42,186 nucleotides of DNA from assembly GCA_021163775.1 (NCBI GenBank), contig JAGGTI010000087.1:1-42186 (forward strand), in the 5' to 3' direction. Below the pieces are notes generated by a model. That model was not told where the DNA came from. It was given only the letters and a program-made list of their open reading frames with translations, and did no database searches. The position numbers and the translations under genes were made by a program. This DNA comes from Candidatus Zixiibacteriota bacterium. Lineage in GTDB: Bacteria > Zixibacteria > MSB-5A5 > GN15 > FEB-12. Each line of letters starts with the position of its first letter. The stretch's first letter is position 1. Below, piece after piece: positions 10,175-18,208 of this stretch.

Positions 10175-10218
10175 AAATTAGTTCCTGCGTGGCACCAGGA
10201 TTATTATTTTGGCGAACA

Positions 10219-12840
10219 ATGAAAAGTAAGTATCTAATCATCTGGCTGGTTCTGACTTTGGCTTTGGGAATCAGAACCGTTCAGCCAGCCACTTTTATAG
10301 TAAACTCACCGGTCGACAGTCACGATGTCGTGCCCGGCGATGGCCTTGCGGCCGACCACACCGATCCGGATTTGGCTCGGTGTACTCTTCGTGCGGCGAT
10401 AGAAGAAGCCAATGCGCAACTCGGATCGGACACCATTCTGGTCCCGTTCAATATCGGGGTGATCTATCTGAATCTTGGTGTCCTGCGTGTGCTGGACAAC
10501 GGCACAGTTCTGACGGGTATCAATGGTCGCCCGATGATTGATGGAGTTCACAACATCATTAACCACGCCACGCTGACCATAGAATCTGACTCCAACTTGA
10601 TCTCCGGCCTGCATTTCCGTCGCGCCCGAGGCGATGCTGTCACTATTACTGGTTCCTACAATACCCTCGGAGATTCAACCGCCGAGAAGCGTCTTCTGCT
10701 CACCGAAAACGGTCTGGACAATCAGAATGCCGCCGCTATACGGATCACCGGTACAGAGGCTACCCACAACCTGGTCATCGGCAACTATATCGGTCTGGAG
10801 GAAAACGGACTGACGGCTTTTGGCAATCGCCACGGCGTTACAATCGAACAAGGAGCATCGGATAACAGGATCGGCACCGGGCAGACCGGAGACCGTAATA
10901 TCATTTCGGGCAACAATGGTTACGGGGTGATAATCTCCGCAACTTCACACTCCAATCAAATAGCTGGAAATTTTGTAGGACCCGATAGCACTGGCAACAA
11001 CGGACCGGGGAATCAACTCGGTGGCATTCTGGTCAAGGACAATGCTCATGACAATCTAATCGGTGCCGAAGATCTCACGCTTGGCAATCTTATCTCCGGC
11101 AACCAGGGAATCGGCATCGAACTGAGTGGCACCGGCGTCACCGATAACACTGTCAACGGCAACCTGATCGGGACTAATCTGTCAGGACGGTACCAACTCG
11201 GCAATTTGGGTGACGGCTTGCGCTTGAGCCAAGGTGCATACAACAACATAATCGGCGGCCCCCATGCCAATTCGGGGAATCTCGTATCGGGTAACGGCGG
11301 TAACGGCATCTGCCTGCGTGGCGAAAATGTTACCGGCAATCTTCTCACAGCCAATTGGGTCGGCCCTACCCTCTCCGGCTACGGAGCACTGGGCAATGGC
11401 TGGATCGACGGCGATGGCATCCTGCTCGACAGTGGCACCCACCACAACACGATTGGCGGCATGACTGAAGCCGAGCGTAACGTCGCCTCCGGCAACTTTC
11501 GGTTTGGTTTGCACCTTGAAGGAGCCGGGACGAACGACAACGAAGTCATCGGCAACTTTTTCGGTGTCAATGGATCCGGGACCAGTTCCCTTGGCAACGC
11601 CGTTGGCGTGGTGATTAGTGGTGGTGCCCAGAGTAACACGATCGGGGGACTGGATGCGAGTTTCCGTAATATCATTTCGGGTAATCGCTCGGACGACTTC
11701 CCTTACGGCGCAGGTGTGTTGATTGAGGGCGAAGGTACCAATTTCAATGCTATCAGTGCCAATATCATTGGATTGGATGTCACTGGGCAGAACCCTCGAC
11801 GCAACGGCACAACCGGGGTAATTATTGGAGGCGGTGCACAATACAACCTGATCGGCGGCGACCATTTTAGCGATGGCAACCTCATTTCTGGTAACGGTCT
11901 TGACGATCCGATTGATGGCCGTGCGGCTGGAATCCACATCTATGGCTCAACTACGGCTCACAACCGAATTGTCAGCAACATCATTGGACTCAATATTGAT
12001 GGCCACGAGATCATCGGCAATAGGGGGCATGGAATCGGTATATACTCTGGATCCTGTCACAACCAGATCGGCGGCGAGACAATTCTCAGGATCAATCAGA
12101 TAGTTGGTAGCGAAGGGGCCGGGGTGTTTATTGCAGGCAGAGAGACCAAATCCAATTTGATTCGCAACAATATGATATATAATAACACAAGTTTAGGAAT
12201 TGACATTCGCGATTCAGCTCAGGCTGGCATCTATCCTCCTACAATAGTTACAGTCAGCCGTCTTGCGACACCGGGACCACGCTACGTAACTGGTCGCGAC
12301 GCCCCTCCTGGCTCCCGAATAGATTTTTATCGTGTTGACCTTCCGCCGGATCCTTCAGGGGCCGGAGAAGGCTCAAATTACCTCGGCTATGGATTTGCCA
12401 ACGCTAATGGATTCTTCACGGCCTATCTGCAACCAGGGCCAGCCGGACCAATTGTTCTCACGGCTATCGCAACCGATTCGTCTAACAACAGTTCCGAATT
12501 TTCAGTAAATGCCAATTCGCCCGATGTTACTTCAGTTGAGGATAACCTTACGGAACTACCTCACAGCTTATTGCTCGATCAAAATTATCCAAACCCATTC
12601 AATGCCGGCACGCTGATCTCTTTCAGCATCCCTCGGGCGGCTGACACCCGGCTGACGATTTTCAATACACTGGGACAAGAAATACTCCGACTCGTGGACC
12701 ATCGCTATTCCGCTGGTAAACATCAGGTTTTCTGGGATGGCAACAACTCTCAGGGCCTTCCAGTGGCCAGCGGCGTTTATTTGTACCGTCTCGATCTCGG
12801 CTACCAGACCGCAGTCCGCAAGATGCTCCTGCTCAAGTGA
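10219..12840 (+). CDS. Secreted CSLREA-type right-handed beta-helix protein with T9SS sorting domain
   Basis: I chose the ATG at 10219 because it begins a normal signal peptide (MKSKYLIIWLVLTLALG); a GTG at 10189 in frame is possible. The product has 873 residues. Residues 55-66 read CTLRAAIEEANA, the CSLREA-domain signature found in front of parallel beta-helix adhesins. From about 110 to 690 there are many repeats of roughly 60 residues in the style N-x-IGG ... NxISGN, with N-G steps at each turn, as in pectate-lyase-like helices. The end (about 785-873) is a sorting domain (NYPNPFNAGTLISF, then SGVYLYRLDLG, ending KMLLLK). It follows the propeller gene by 44 bases and probably shares its transcript. 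A polysaccharide-binding or adhesive role is inferred; no catalytic residues can be claimed. Confidence 0.88.
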   Translation: MKSKYLIIWLVLTLALGIRTVQPATFIVNSPVDSHDVVPGDGLAADHTDPDLARCTLRAAIEEANAQLGSDTILVPFNIGVIYLNLGVLRVLDNGTVLTGINGRPMIDGVHNIINHATLTIESDSNLISGLHFRRARGDAVTITGSYNTLGDSTAEKRLLLTENGLDNQNAAAIRITGTEATHNLVIGNYIGLEENGLTAFGNRHGVTIEQGASDNRIGTGQTGDRNIISGNNGYGVIISATSHSNQIAGNFVGPDSTGNNGPGNQLGGILVKDNAHDNLIGAEDLTLGNLISGNQGIGIELSGTGVTDNTVNGNLIGTNLSGRYQLGNLGDGLRLSQGAYNNIIGGPHANSGNLVSGNGGNGICLRGENVTGNLLTANWVGPTLSGYGALGNGWIDGDGILLDSGTHHNTIGGMTEAERNVASGNFRFGLHLEGAGTNDNEVIGNFFGVNGSGTSSLGNAVGVVISGGAQSNTIGGLDASFRNIISGNRSDDFPYGAGVLIEGEGTNFNAISANIIGLDVTGQNPRRNGTTGVIIGGGAQYNLIGGDHFSDGNLISGNGLDDPIDGRAAGIHIYGSTTAHNRIVSNIIGLNIDGHEIIGNRGHGIGIYSGSCHNQIGGETILRINQIVGSEGAGVFIAGRETKSNLIRNNMIYNNTSLGIDIRDSAQAGIYPPTIVTVSRLATPGPRYVTGRDAPPGSRIDFYRVDLPPDPSGAGEGSNYLGYGFANANGFFTAYLQPGPAGPIVLTAIATDSSNNSSEFSVNANSPDVTSVEDNLTELPHSLLLDQNYPNPFNAGTLISFSIPRAADTRLTIFNTLGQEILRLVDHRYSAGKHQVFWDGNNSQGLPVASGVYLYRLDLGYQTAVRKMLLLK

Positions 12841-13576: not shown

Positions 13577-14767
13577 CTAACCAAAGAAACGACACAGCAA
13601 CGCCGCACCGTAAGCCACCGGGTTGCCGATCGCATAGCCTAACAGGGCCATCAGAATCGACACCGGGACCAGTGCTGGTTTGTGGTACGCGGCAACAATC
13701 GGAGCCGAGGCCGCCCCACCTATATTGGCCGCCGATGCAATCGCGGCAGTGTGAACATCAACCCGGAACAAACGTGCGGCCACCAGTAGAAAGAAACCGT
13801 GGATGAATATCCAGATAAACGCTCCGAGTAGGAACCAGAGCACTGAAACATCAATATTGCTCAGGTCAGCTTTGGCACCCATACGGGCAACGAAAAGGTA
13901 AATCAGCGCCATTGAGAAGGCGTGCGAACTCGGTATCTTACTTGCCGGTGTGAAAGAGAGCGTAACACCAAAAACAGTCACCAGCAGAATCTTGTAAGTA
14001 TTCGCGGAAACTATGATCTGTCCGGCCGCGGTCCGAATCGGTTCCAGTTGACCGGCAATCCAGGTCGATAGTGCTGTAACAGCAAAACCGAGAAATATGA
14101 GGTAAAGGAAATGACGCATCTCCACCTTACCCTTGTCGGTCGTCAACTCTTTCGCCGCCGCTTCCATGCGCTCCAGACGATCCGAAGATACCCGCGTGAA
14201 TTTATGAAACCATCCCGCGAAATTCTTTGAACCCAACATAATCGGCAACCAAATGAGATAGACAGCATTGTCGGCTATAACCGCATAGCCGAATTCCAGC
14301 GAGCTTTCGTCCAACCCAACCATCTGCCCCACCGCCAACATATTACCGGTGCCACCGATCCAACTGCCAGCCAGCGCCCCAAAACCTTTCCAGGCTTCGG
14401 GTCCAAGACCGTGACTAACCAGCATATACGCAATTGGCGCCCCGACAACCACCCCTAACGTACCCAGTAACATAACAAAAATGCCTTTGCCCATCACACG
14501 GATCGTAGCCAACAGGTCAACATCGAGAAGCATGATGACCAGGAACATCGGTAGAATGTTAGCTCCCATAAAATCATACACCGGCGCTTTATTGGGGATA
14601 ACACTAGTGTTTGACAGCACTACCGGAATCAGGTAGATGAAAATGAGTGGTGGAAAATAGTTAAATAGTTTCCAGGCGGTTTTCTTTTCCAGTAAGAAAA
14701 AAAGCGAAGCTACCGCGGCCAGTGCGGCGATGATCCCGGCAGAAGATGTAATCCAGGCGTCTTGCAT
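13577..14767 (-). CDS. DUF819 (YjcL-like) multi-pass membrane protein
   Basis: A 396-residue inner-membrane protein with about ten or eleven hydrophobic segments, a charged cytoplasmic loop in the middle (SSDRLERMEAAAKELTTDKG) and the family's glycine-rich stretches GSWIGGTGNMLAV and ASAANIGGAASAPIVAA. These fit the DUF819 family, which is thought to be transporter-like, but the substrate is not known. The ATG at 14767 has AAGAGG 12 bases upstream. It stands alone, convergent with pcm and divergent from the small RIS-domain gene. The gene looks intact. Confidence 0.87.
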   Translation of the reverse strand: MQDAWITSSAGIIAALAAVASLFFLLEKKTAWKLFNYFPPLIFIYLIPVVLSNTSVIPNKAPVYDFMGANILPMFLVIMLLDVDLLATIRVMGKGIFVMLLGTLGVVVGAPIAYMLVSHGLGPEAWKGFGALAGSWIGGTGNMLAVGQMVGLDESSLEFGYAVIADNAVYLIWLPIMLGSKNFAGWFHKFTRVSSDRLERMEAAAKELTTDKGKVEMRHFLYLIFLGFAVTALSTWIAGQLEPIRTAAGQIIVSANTYKILLVTVFGVTLSFTPASKIPSSHAFSMALIYLFVARMGAKADLSNIDVSVLWFLLGAFIWIFIHGFFLLVAARLFRVDVHTAAIASAANIGGAASAPIVAAYHKPALVPVSILMALLGYAIGNPVAYGAALLCRFFG

Positions 14768-14887
14768 AATGTCTAAGCCTCTTGTCAGATTAAGAGGCCA
14801 ATAAACAGTTGATCGCCGTGCAGAACAAATAGAATTGTGCCTATCTCGATCACTTGCGCAACTCCCCAGAACGAACTATTTTATCGT

Positions 14888-15436
14888 ATGGCAGACAAAA
14901 CATCTTCCTCGCCGCTTCTCAAAGAGCGATATGTCCTAGCCAAGTGCTGTTCACCATCGGAGACCGATCAAATCACCGGCTATTTCAGCTATGACAACCT
15001 GATCAAAGTCCACAGGCATGACTGCGCCAACCTGATCAAAGCCGAACCTGATCGTCTGGTACAACTCGTGTGGAAGGAAATCCTGGCCACCCACAAATTC
15101 CGACCCGGCACCGACTATACTGACTTAGACGCTACCGACTTCGCCATTCTCAAGCATCATCGCGATTACGATATCGACTACTCGCTCAAAGTCGCCCAGG
15201 TGCTCGGACTGGAGAAACAGGAGACGTTCGACCGACATCGGAAACTGCGTGAACTCGGTTTACTGGAGCGAGTTGAGACTCTGATTGTTCAGTACCGCAA
15301 GAAGATCGCGAAGAACAAGTGGATCAAACATCGGAATCACACATATTATAAATTGACCGAGCGGGGCATAGCCTACCTAAATTTTTATCTCGCCGAAAAT
15401 ATCCCGAATATCGAAAGTGACACTAATCGAGAATAG
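14888..15436 (+). CDS. RelA/SpoT-type zinc-finger (RIS) domain fused to a winged-helix domain
   Basis: Residues 12-62 resemble the zinc-finger/RIS domain from the C-terminal half of RelA/SpoT: C20-C21 in LAKCCSP, then D-Q-I-T-G-Y, then H42 in VHRHDC and C46, then RLVQLVW. No hydrolase, synthetase, TGS or ACT domain is present. Residues 82-170 form a predicted winged helix (FAILKHHRDYDIDYSLKVAQ, RKLRELGLLERVE, YYKLTERGIAYLNFYL), resembling DUF2250-type or MarR-like folds. The protein is therefore a small putative regulator of 182 residues. I chose the ATG at 14888 because it begins directly before the conserved domain; a GTG at 14837 would add 17 residues. No good ribosome site is visible for either. 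The function is inferred only. Confidence 0.72.
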   Translation: MADKTSSSPLLKERYVLAKCCSPSETDQITGYFSYDNLIKVHRHDCANLIKAEPDRLVQLVWKEILATHKFRPGTDYTDLDATDFAILKHHRDYDIDYSLKVAQVLGLEKQETFDRHRKLRELGLLERVETLIVQYRKKIAKNKWIKHRNHTYYKLTERGIAYLNFYLAENIPNIESDTNRE

Positions 15437-15544: not shown

Positions 15545-18208
15545 ATGTCCAAAAGAAGTATAACTATTGCCGTGGCCCTGATGCTGGCCTTCTTCCTATT
15601 CGATACCGCCGGTGCCCAGATTCGGGATCATTCAACCGCAAAACAAAAGTCAAAGGCGACTTCCAACGACAAGTCGGGAAAGAACGGTTTGAAACCGTTC
15701 GCCACCCTGATCAAGGACAAGGTCGTTATTGAAGGCCTCTTCACTTTCTATCGTGACACAGTTGATAACAGCATGCTAATGGCGATCAAAGCTGATCAGC
15801 TCGGGCCGTATTACCTGTGTAACATGGCTAAAGGAACCGCCGATGGCTCGTACTACGATACCGGCCCGTTGGGGCGTTCTTTCCCGTTCTATTTCAAACG
15901 GGTAGGCAAGAAAATTATGATGTTGGAAAAAAACCTACGGTTCCGGGCCGATAGTGCCAGCACCATGAGCGATGCTGTGGCTAAAGGGATTTCCGATCAT
16001 CTGTTTGCCAGTATGGATGTCAAGTCGCTACCCAAAGACTCAGCCGGAGCGGTCCTGATTAACCCGTCTGCAATCTTCATTCGCGACGCTGACAACGTCA
16101 GTTACTATCTTGGCCAACGTGCCCGGTTGGGTGTCAGCTTTGACTCCAAGAATAGTTTTTACGAAACCGTCAAATCGTTCCCTGAAAATTCTGAGATCAA
16201 CGTCAAACTACATTTCAAGGCTAATCACAATCTGGGTGGCGTCTCATTACAAAACGGCCGGAGCTTTTTCCACACCTACCACTACTCGTTGTCATCGCTC
16301 CCTGAGACCGATTACGAGCCGCGCCTGGCCGACGACCGAGTCGCCTATTTCATAACCCAGTATCAGGACTACACCAATCTCGACACCCGCACACCGTATA
16401 TCCGCTATATTGATCGATGGAATCTAAAGAAAAAGAACCCAGATGCTCGCATTTCTGAACCGGTAAAACCAATTGTATATTGGATCGACAACGCTGTTCC
16501 GGTCGAGTTCCGCGATGCCATTGCTGAGGGAGTCGAATTCTGGAACCCGGCGTTTGAGAAAATCGGCTTTCGCAATGCCATCGTAGCCAAACAGATGCCC
16601 GACACCGTCGATTGGGATCCGCTTGATGTCCGCTATAGCACGATTCGCTGGATGGTCTCCCCCGGCGCTGGTTACGCTATCGGACCACACCGCGCCAATC
16701 CGTTTACCGGTCAAATCTACGATGCCGACATCTCGATTTCGGTTGATCTGATGCGTTACTTCTTCAACCTGGTTGACGAATTCGTTTTACCGGTATCTAC
16801 TGACGGGCGTATCTTGGACAACACCGAGATTCCTGAGAGAAACGAAGGGATGCAAGAATATAACGATCGACATTGCAACTACGCCGAGGAATTGGCGCGA
16901 GAAGCCGCCTTTGGTCTTTCGTATCTCTTGAGTACTGAAGGTGCTTTCGCTAACAAAGATTCAGTGACACGTGAATACGTCCACGCCGTACTGGTCGAGT
17001 TTGTGGCTCACGAAGTCGGGCACACGCTCGGTTTCCGACACAATTTCAAAGCCTCCTCAATCTACACCCTGGAACAGCTCCGCGATCGCAATTTCACCCG
17101 CACTCACAGTACCGGCGGGACGGTCATGGACTACAATCCGCCGCTCATATCCGGCAAAGGTCAGGTCCAGGGTGAGTTTTTCGCCTCGGTGCCCGGACCT
17201 TACGACGACTTCATGATTGAATACGGCTACTCGGAGTTCGGCGACGTTTCTGTTGAAGAAGAGACTGAACACTTGAAGACAATAGCATCGCGCATAGCTG
17301 AACCACAACTGGCTTACGCCACAGATTTTGATCTCAACGCCTTTGCGGTCGATCCGCTGGCCCAACAACACGATATGGGTAACGACCCAATCGCTTACTC
17401 CGAGCACCAGATCGGCCTTACTCGGGAGCTCTGGCAGAATGCGGCCAACCGTTTTGAGAAATCGGGCGAAAGCTACGAGAAAATCCGTCTGGTTTTCCAG
17501 AACGGCTGGCGGGCCTATCGTGGGGCGGCTCGTATCGTCCCGCGTGTTGTTGGCGGCCTCTATCACAGCAAGAGTTATGTCGGCGATCCCGGCGGTAAGG
17601 TTCCATTTACACCTGTTCCGGCGACTGAACAACGCCGTGCGGTCAAGTTTATATGCGACAATATTTTCGCCGCTGATGCTTTCGATGTCCCGGCCGAACT
17701 ACTTAACAAACTCCAACCGGCTCGTTTTGGCGATTTCGCAGGTACAATCTATCGGTCACCGATCGCTTATCAATGGCACGAGCGGGTGCTCAATATCCAG
17801 CGACGGGCTGTCAACACCCTCTACATTCCACGCACACTCGCTCGCCTGCTCAACAACCTGTCGAGAGTACCCGATGACCAGCCGAAGTACACTATGCATG
17901 ATCTCTTCACCGAGGTACGCCGCTCAATCTGGAGCGAAATCGTCGCCCCGAACAATGTCTCGAGCCTGCGACGACAGTTGCAGATGTTTCACCTGAGACG
18001 TATCATATATATCTATCTGAGCAACGCCTCGGTGTATCCATCGGATGCCCTGACCCTTGCGGCCAACGATCTGGAAATTCTGAAGAACGCCGCACAGAAT
18101 GCTATCCGATCAAAAGCGATTAACGAGATGACTCGGGCACATTTCAAAGAAGTGCTTCGACAAATCAATGCCGCCCTCAGTGCCGATCGGAATTACTTCG
18201 ATTTATAG
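15545..18208 (+). CDS. Secreted zinc-dependent metalloprotease (DUF5117/DUF4953 type)
   Basis: A signal peptide (MSKRSITIAVALMLAFFLFDTAGAQ) and an excellent ribosome site (GGAGGAT, 6-7 bases before the ATG) support this start. The 887-residue product carries a metzincin-like site: H489-E490-V-G-H493-T-L-G-F-R-H499, followed by a likely Met-turn in GGTVMDYNPP. The preceding half (about 80-400) has the strand-rich pattern of DUF5117, and the segment after the active site fits DUF4953, as in large bacterial zinc proteases of the FCB group. It should be exported to the periplasm or outside; no sorting domain is seen at its C-terminus (NAALSADRNYFDL), unlike the other secreted proteins here. It has its own 108-base upstream gap and looks monocistronic. 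Confidence 0.9.
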   Translation: MSKRSITIAVALMLAFFLFDTAGAQIRDHSTAKQKSKATSNDKSGKNGLKPFATLIKDKVVIEGLFTFYRDTVDNSMLMAIKADQLGPYYLCNMAKGTADGSYYDTGPLGRSFPFYFKRVGKKIMMLEKNLRFRADSASTMSDAVAKGISDHLFASMDVKSLPKDSAGAVLINPSAIFIRDADNVSYYLGQRARLGVSFDSKNSFYETVKSFPENSEINVKLHFKANHNLGGVSLQNGRSFFHTYHYSLSSLPETDYEPRLADDRVAYFITQYQDYTNLDTRTPYIRYIDRWNLKKKNPDARISEPVKPIVYWIDNAVPVEFRDAIAEGVEFWNPAFEKIGFRNAIVAKQMPDTVDWDPLDVRYSTIRWMVSPGAGYAIGPHRANPFTGQIYDADISISVDLMRYFFNLVDEFVLPVSTDGRILDNTEIPERNEGMQEYNDRHCNYAEELAREAAFGLSYLLSTEGAFANKDSVTREYVHAVLVEFVAHEVGHTLGFRHNFKASSIYTLEQLRDRNFTRTHSTGGTVMDYNPPLISGKGQVQGEFFASVPGPYDDFMIEYGYSEFGDVSVEEETEHLKTIASRIAEPQLAYATDFDLNAFAVDPLAQQHDMGNDPIAYSEHQIGLTRELWQNAANRFEKSGESYEKIRLVFQNGWRAYRGAARIVPRVVGGLYHSKSYVGDPGGKVPFTPVPATEQRRAVKFICDNIFAADAFDVPAELLNKLQPARFGDFAGTIYRSPIAYQWHERVLNIQRRAVNTLYIPRTLARLLNNLSRVPDDQPKYTMHDLFTEVRRSIWSEIVAPNNVSSLRRQLQMFHLRRIIYIYLSNASVYPSDALTLAANDLEILKNAAQNAIRSKAINEMTRAHFKEVLRQINAALSADRNYFDL

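Follow-up and report, generated by a model that had tools for sequence, protein, structure and literature searches.

In RelA the RIS domain (also termed ZFD or CC) is a ribosome-docking domain. According to a structural report, it bridges the ribosomal subunits with a helix in the groove of the A-site finger and a sheet on S19, and ACT, the next domain in RelA, also sits on the A-site finger (PMC4974054). Residue R629 of E. coli RelA is described as close to 23S phosphates, in a GRG loop that faces the rRNA, and the changes R629E and C612A/C613A have been used to weaken the binding of RelA to the ribosome (PMC7058999). A further report links the CC domain of the RelA/SpoT (RSH) enzymes to dimerisation and cross-talk (PMC3153485). 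In the open-access literature we found no description of a RIS domain outside a RelA/SpoT enzyme. Two further groups are relevant to the protein described below: the MarR-family regulators, and the Pfam family DUF2250 (PF10007), which Pfam calls archaeal.

The gene lies on a stretch of 42,186 nucleotides from a Candidatus Zixiibacteriota bacterium, which we call the window. It occupies positions 14888..15436 of the forward strand, stop codon included, in agreement with the coordinates assigned earlier, and encodes 182 aa. An alternative in-frame GTG upstream, at 14837, would lengthen the protein by 17 aa; we favour the ATG at 14888 because of the alignment of relatives and because a candidate -10 element, TATTTT (14877..14882, forward strand), stands 11 bases before it. 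The N-terminal part is a zinc-finger domain of the RIS/ZFD type (14918..15085, forward strand; residues ~11-66) with C20, C21, H42 and C46, and the C-terminal part is a DUF2250 winged helix (15125..15397, forward strand; residues ~80-170). Neither Pfam nor NCBIfam gave one family model spanning both halves. Pfam detected no HD, synthetase, TGS, AH or ACT domain in the 182 aa, and the protein differs from RSHs in that its RIS domain stands outside such an enzyme, without AH or ACT neighbours. The genome of the window also codes for an ordinary long RSH with the full domain set, as judged by Pfam.

The proposal that the N-terminal half is a RIS-type zinc finger, made in a sequence-only reading of this gene, is borne out by profile matches, by sequence and fold matches to PDB entries, and by the invariance of the Cys-Cys-His-Cys positions. 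Residues 8-68 match the NCBIfam model TIGR00691 (spoT_relA) at its RIS positions 548-610 with an E-value of 5.4e-9, and a phmmer search of the PDB matched residues 16-65 to RelA/Rel chains (E 6e-5); with a profile of 62 relatives, the N-terminal half reached E 5e-13 against the PDB. When the N-terminal halves of 62 family members were compared by hhalign with 19 RSH RIS domains (19 of the 35 from RSHs of Zixibacteria and Poribacteria), the match was 99.4%, with E 5.1e-22. The predicted zinc-ligand positions C20, C21, H42 and C46 align without gaps to C612, C613, H634 and C638 of E. coli RelA; all 75 aligned members have them unchanged, and all 20 further loci from the profile search carry the set. 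Our first alignment comprised 24 of 30 loci (L006, L010, L016, L019, L020 and L024 were left out) and our second the window plus 74 of 80 loci; the six left out of the latter (L058, L060, L062, L080, L096 and L109) had been extended automatically through a stop or had an uncertain start.

The structural comparisons agree. Modelled alone, the N-terminal half had a pLDDT of 90.4, and Foldseek placed RelA/SpoT/Rsh entries at all of ranks 1-9 with a probability of 1.00, the later listed rows being at 0.07 or below. With VIA-align the RSH entries scored Z 6.1-7.0 and the next entry 2.1; a Z below 8 would be weak alone, but the sharp drop in Z together with the sequence match makes the assignment safe. 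We conclude that residues ~11-66 form a true RIS/ZFD domain, with a predicted zinc site. They share with RSHs the fold, the C-C...H...C spacing and the conserved G31, V/I41 and W62, and the RIS residues kept across both phyla of the family are mainly core positions. The Pfam model PF19296 (RelA_AH_RIS), to which the window protein had no match at E <= 10, is unusable as a test for RIS because in the genome's own RSH only its AH half was matched. Two other explanations of the domain were rejected: a chance motif, on the hhalign profile and Foldseek fold evidence, and a fragment of a broken RSH, on the presence of full-length relatives in two phyla and of an intact RSH elsewhere in the genome.

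The C-terminal half had been read as a winged helix, and this too was upheld: it has a MarR-like winged-helix fold, and residues 82-162 match DUF2250 above its gathering cut-off (48.4 bits against 24.4; E 1e-12). All 24 members of the first alignment match DUF2250 at E <= 1. The whole-protein model (mean pLDDT 84.8) matches MarR-family regulators; our models are metal-free. MarR-family regulators are the nearest folds of this half, the best row having Z 13.6 and an rmsd of 2.3 A over 79 residues, in a list from which the absence of a family does not exclude it, and the Pfam MarR models gave weak matches in just 1-2 of the 24 members. The protein differs from the MarR family in carrying the zinc finger in place of the N-terminal dimerisation helices, and in a wing that is longer, flexible and invariant; because the C-terminal helix is short in the model, a MarR-type dimer is not evident. 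Two haloarchaeal plasmid proteins with DUF2250 share the H-T-Y-Y end of the wing but have another N-terminal part and no RIS domain. By eye, these haloarchaeal proteins, P0002 and P0003 (L115:2189-3046 and L116:2204-3067), apparently hold two winged-helix copies, at least one of which ends in H-T-Y-Y. Membership in the eS10/Plectin-S10 family (S10_plectin) was rejected, the window protein scoring 15.8 bits against a gathering cut-off of 26.9.

The wing (15278..15349, forward strand; residues 131-154), with its K-W-I-K-H-R-N-H-T-Y tip, is the best-conserved segment of the protein: in the alignment of members its mean majority share is 0.83, compared with 0.67 for the winged-helix core and 0.59 for the RIS domain. 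Its residues 131-150 are modelled with a pLDDT of only ~55, and low pLDDT beside high conservation is what would be expected if the loop becomes ordered on a partner. Wing conservation in the second alignment is partly a matter of selection, since the 80-locus scan was seeded on the wing motif; fairer evidence comes from the members found by whole-protein search, of which 24 keep the motif with one K-to-R change (L008), and by profile search, of which 20 keep it with one I-to-M change (L200).

The fusion proved to be a conserved family when its spread in related genomes was examined. With rows at E < 1e-30, the gene is found in 75 of 132 genomes of Zixibacteria, the phylum of the window, in 66 of 84 Poribacteria genomes, and in 59 of 98 relatives; the match is partial in three of the Zixibacterial and one of the Poribacterial genomes, and the tool's tallies of 125, 81 and 77, respectively, take in the RIS domain of RSHs themselves. 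The RIS domain and the winged helix are conserved as one unit in two phyla. Genomes with the gene mostly carry a single copy (two in G028), and the Poribacterial sequences form one group with a support of 100/100. A single further genome represents the window's genus; it is rated as 100% complete and lacks the gene. A scan for relatives yielded records of the Zixibacteria type and of Poribacteria among the 80 listed of 116 confirmed. We note that two records titled Ignavibacterium (L090) and Calditrichaeota (L072) match, by their coordinates, genomes placed in the order and family of the window, and their titles are probably wrong. Within Zixibacteria, matches to DUF2250 fall on genes of this family, with one extra match, in G037, to what we take by eye to be a DtxR-like protein. 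Viral contigs gave 24 pattern matches and no relatives, and plasmids, among the 20 of 43 records listed, gave only RSHs, short haloarchaeal DUF2250 matches or unannotated matches to the RIS part.

The family departs from the RSH enzymes in the loop that faces the rRNA. The PxPGD and TRGRG motifs of the RSH domain, R629 included, are replaced in the stand-alone family. We examined 81 members at this position (including the six left out of the second alignment) and set aside nine with one extra loop residue, one of which, L066, has a loop arginine. Among the remaining 72, arginine occurs in none and lysine in three. As controls we used RSHs from Zixibacteria and Poribacteria, for which 35 of 40 stretches were RSH RIS domains, the other five being of the stand-alone family; here the residue is R in 32 of 35, K in two and G in one, and the glycines that flank it on both sides, replaced in the stand-alone family, are kept in 35 of 35. 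By sequence comparison, then, the family appears to keep the zinc core of the RIS domain without the ribosome-contact loop of RSHs. With the arginine and glycines replaced, the domain is RIS by descent and fold but has lost the best-studied RSH contact; other faces of it could still touch the ribosome. A family with the zinc core but without the rRNA contact separates the two roles of the RIS domain, and a small soluble protein offers a means of studying the RIS zinc finger in isolation.

A possible, though clearly less favoured, function is that of a ribosome- or rRNA-associated factor, whose RIS domain would dock at the intersubunit bridge while the winged helix and its basic wing take the place of ACT on rRNA. 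The only known role of the RIS domain is that of ribosome-intersubunit domain in RSHs, as in the structural report cited above, which also puts ACT on the A-site finger (PMC4974054). The housekeeping-like single copy, the invariant basic wing and the weak matches of 4 of 24 members to S10_plectin (that of the window protein itself lying below the cut-off) point the same way. Against this, every ungapped member has lost R629 and the GRG loop, the two phyla have their basic loop residues at different positions (K40 for Zixibacteria, K34 for Poribacteria), and the recurrent neighbour clusters hold no ribosomal gene. A bolder form of the idea, which we regard as unlikely, is that the freed RIS domain has been reused as a docking module: the protein would sit at the intersubunit bridge through a remodelled RIS face, with its wing on rRNA, would compete with or report to the cell's RSH, and would shuttle between ribosome and DNA, such that transcription, its own leaderless mRNA included, would follow the state of the ribosome.

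Less likely still is a transcription regulator whose RIS domain senses starvation because it binds to starved ribosomes, to tRNA or to the RSH enzyme. RIS homology favours it, as does the link of the RSH CC domain to dimerisation and cross-talk (PMC3153485). An RSH was also present in six of six genomes searched and in that of the window. Nearly all bacteria have an RSH, however, so that finding both together carries little weight; the loop that contacts the ribosome is lost; and no gene link to amino acids or (p)ppGpp was seen, save a neighbour upstream in four loci that by eye we take to be glutamine-synthetase-like. Among the recurrent neighbour clusters we found no neighbour or partner that ties the family to (p)ppGpp or starvation. 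The sequence-only reading had suggested a regulator that uses the stringent-response sensing module without making or degrading (p)ppGpp. The sensing part of that suggestion is not supported, given that RIS is a ribosome-docking domain in RelA and that its rRNA-facing R629/GRG residues are replaced here; the remainder is, since a protein with a RIS domain and a winged helix, and with no synthetase or hydrolase domain, is probably a regulator.

The surroundings of the gene fit a transcription regulator in the Zixibacteria. Of 52 other Zixibacterial members (loci L035-L082), 30 have the sequence TATATT between -20 and -6, lying 8-18 bases ahead of the start codon, where the window has its own TATTTT; among the remaining ORFs of these loci, whose starts are approximate, only 2 of 230 have it. 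Conversely, an SD-like sequence precedes 2 of the 52 and 81 of the 230. This enrichment and rarity make it likely that the mRNA is leaderless in Zixibacteria. A promoter and terminator scan returned none, and an Rfam search across the entire window likewise returned none. Immediately divergent from the gene is a DUF819 putative permease (13577..14767, reverse strand), an arrangement which, with the likely leaderless start, fits a transcription regulator. It recurs in 32 of the 39 genomes of the window's family that have the gene, with 108-459 bp between the matched regions, and DUF819 has the same divergent orientation in three genomes of a second Zixibacterial family (G071, G076 and G072), two of which (G076 and G072) have what by eye is presumably a nitroreductase-like gene in between.

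DUF819 also co-occurs with the gene. In the window's family it is present in 35 of 39 genomes with the gene and 5 of 15 without it (Fisher p 8e-5), and outside that family in 16 of 36 and 5 of 36 (p 0.009), both values being uncorrected for ancestry. The table covers 126 of the 132 Zixibacteria genomes (G081, G085, G090, G094, G098 and G128 were left out), with the DUF819 column drawn from 129. Ten tabulated genomes have DUF819 without the gene, and G081, outside the table, is another row against the link. None of the 84 Poribacteria genomes, 66 of which have the gene, contains DUF819, and the permease is therefore not the general target but at most a lineage-specific one. Neighbours vary between lineages: in 21 Poribacterial loci a gene that we take to be purD lies less than 400 bases upstream, and in 24 Zixibacterial loci an exported met-zincin metallopeptidase (DUF4953 with DUF5117/DUF5118; in the window at 15545..18208, forward strand) follows downstream, its functional link to the gene being putative. 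A search for palindromic operators at first gave a motif that outscored plain shuffles. Palindromes ahead of gene-matched control genes, however, scored as high as the best ones ahead of the gene itself, and we therefore claim no operator.

While the anatomy of the protein is certain, its function is what we infer, and we favour, at a probability of roughly 0.5, a nucleic-acid-binding regulator with a zinc-finger module, encoded in single copy and most likely acting on transcription. This reading is supported by the MarR-family folds nearest to its C-terminal half, the invariant predicted zinc ligands, the loss of R629, the pairing with DUF819, and a strongly conserved basic wing whose conservation exceeds that of the RIS domain. 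Against it stand the lack of an operator above controls, the absence of DUF819 from Poribacteria, the lineage-dependent neighbours and the short C-terminal helix, with which a MarR-type dimer is not evident; in addition, RNA and protein are also possible ligands of a winged helix, and one invariant wing in two phyla exceeds the need of a repressor with one target. We rank it above the ribosome-associated factor, which in turn stands above the starvation sensor. Ranked last, and doubtful, is a repressor that responds to zinc or redox state and controls metal or metallopeptidase genes: it would suit the invariant Cys-Cys-His-Cys set and the met-zincin gene that is often next in Zixibacteria, but a structural zinc site needs identical residues, no metal transporter was seen adjoining the gene, and in Poribacteria the recurrent neighbours do not include the met-zincin gene.

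If the protein is a transcription regulator, its zinc finger may serve as a structural, dimerising or zinc/redox-responsive module and not as a ribosome clamp, while the winged helix would bind DNA, on which the flexible wing would become ordered. In Zixibacteria it may act on the promoter region that the divergent DUF819 gene shares with the regulator's own, probably leaderless, gene; in Poribacteria, which are without DUF819, the target would have to be a different one. The family thereby provides a candidate function for DUF2250 and, in Zixibacteria, a candidate regulator for DUF819 permeases. Elsewhere on the window, at 10189-12840 of the forward strand, we observed a repetitive, secreted-type protein of 883 aa, whose C-terminal domain, by eye, we take to resemble a type IX secretion sorting signal.
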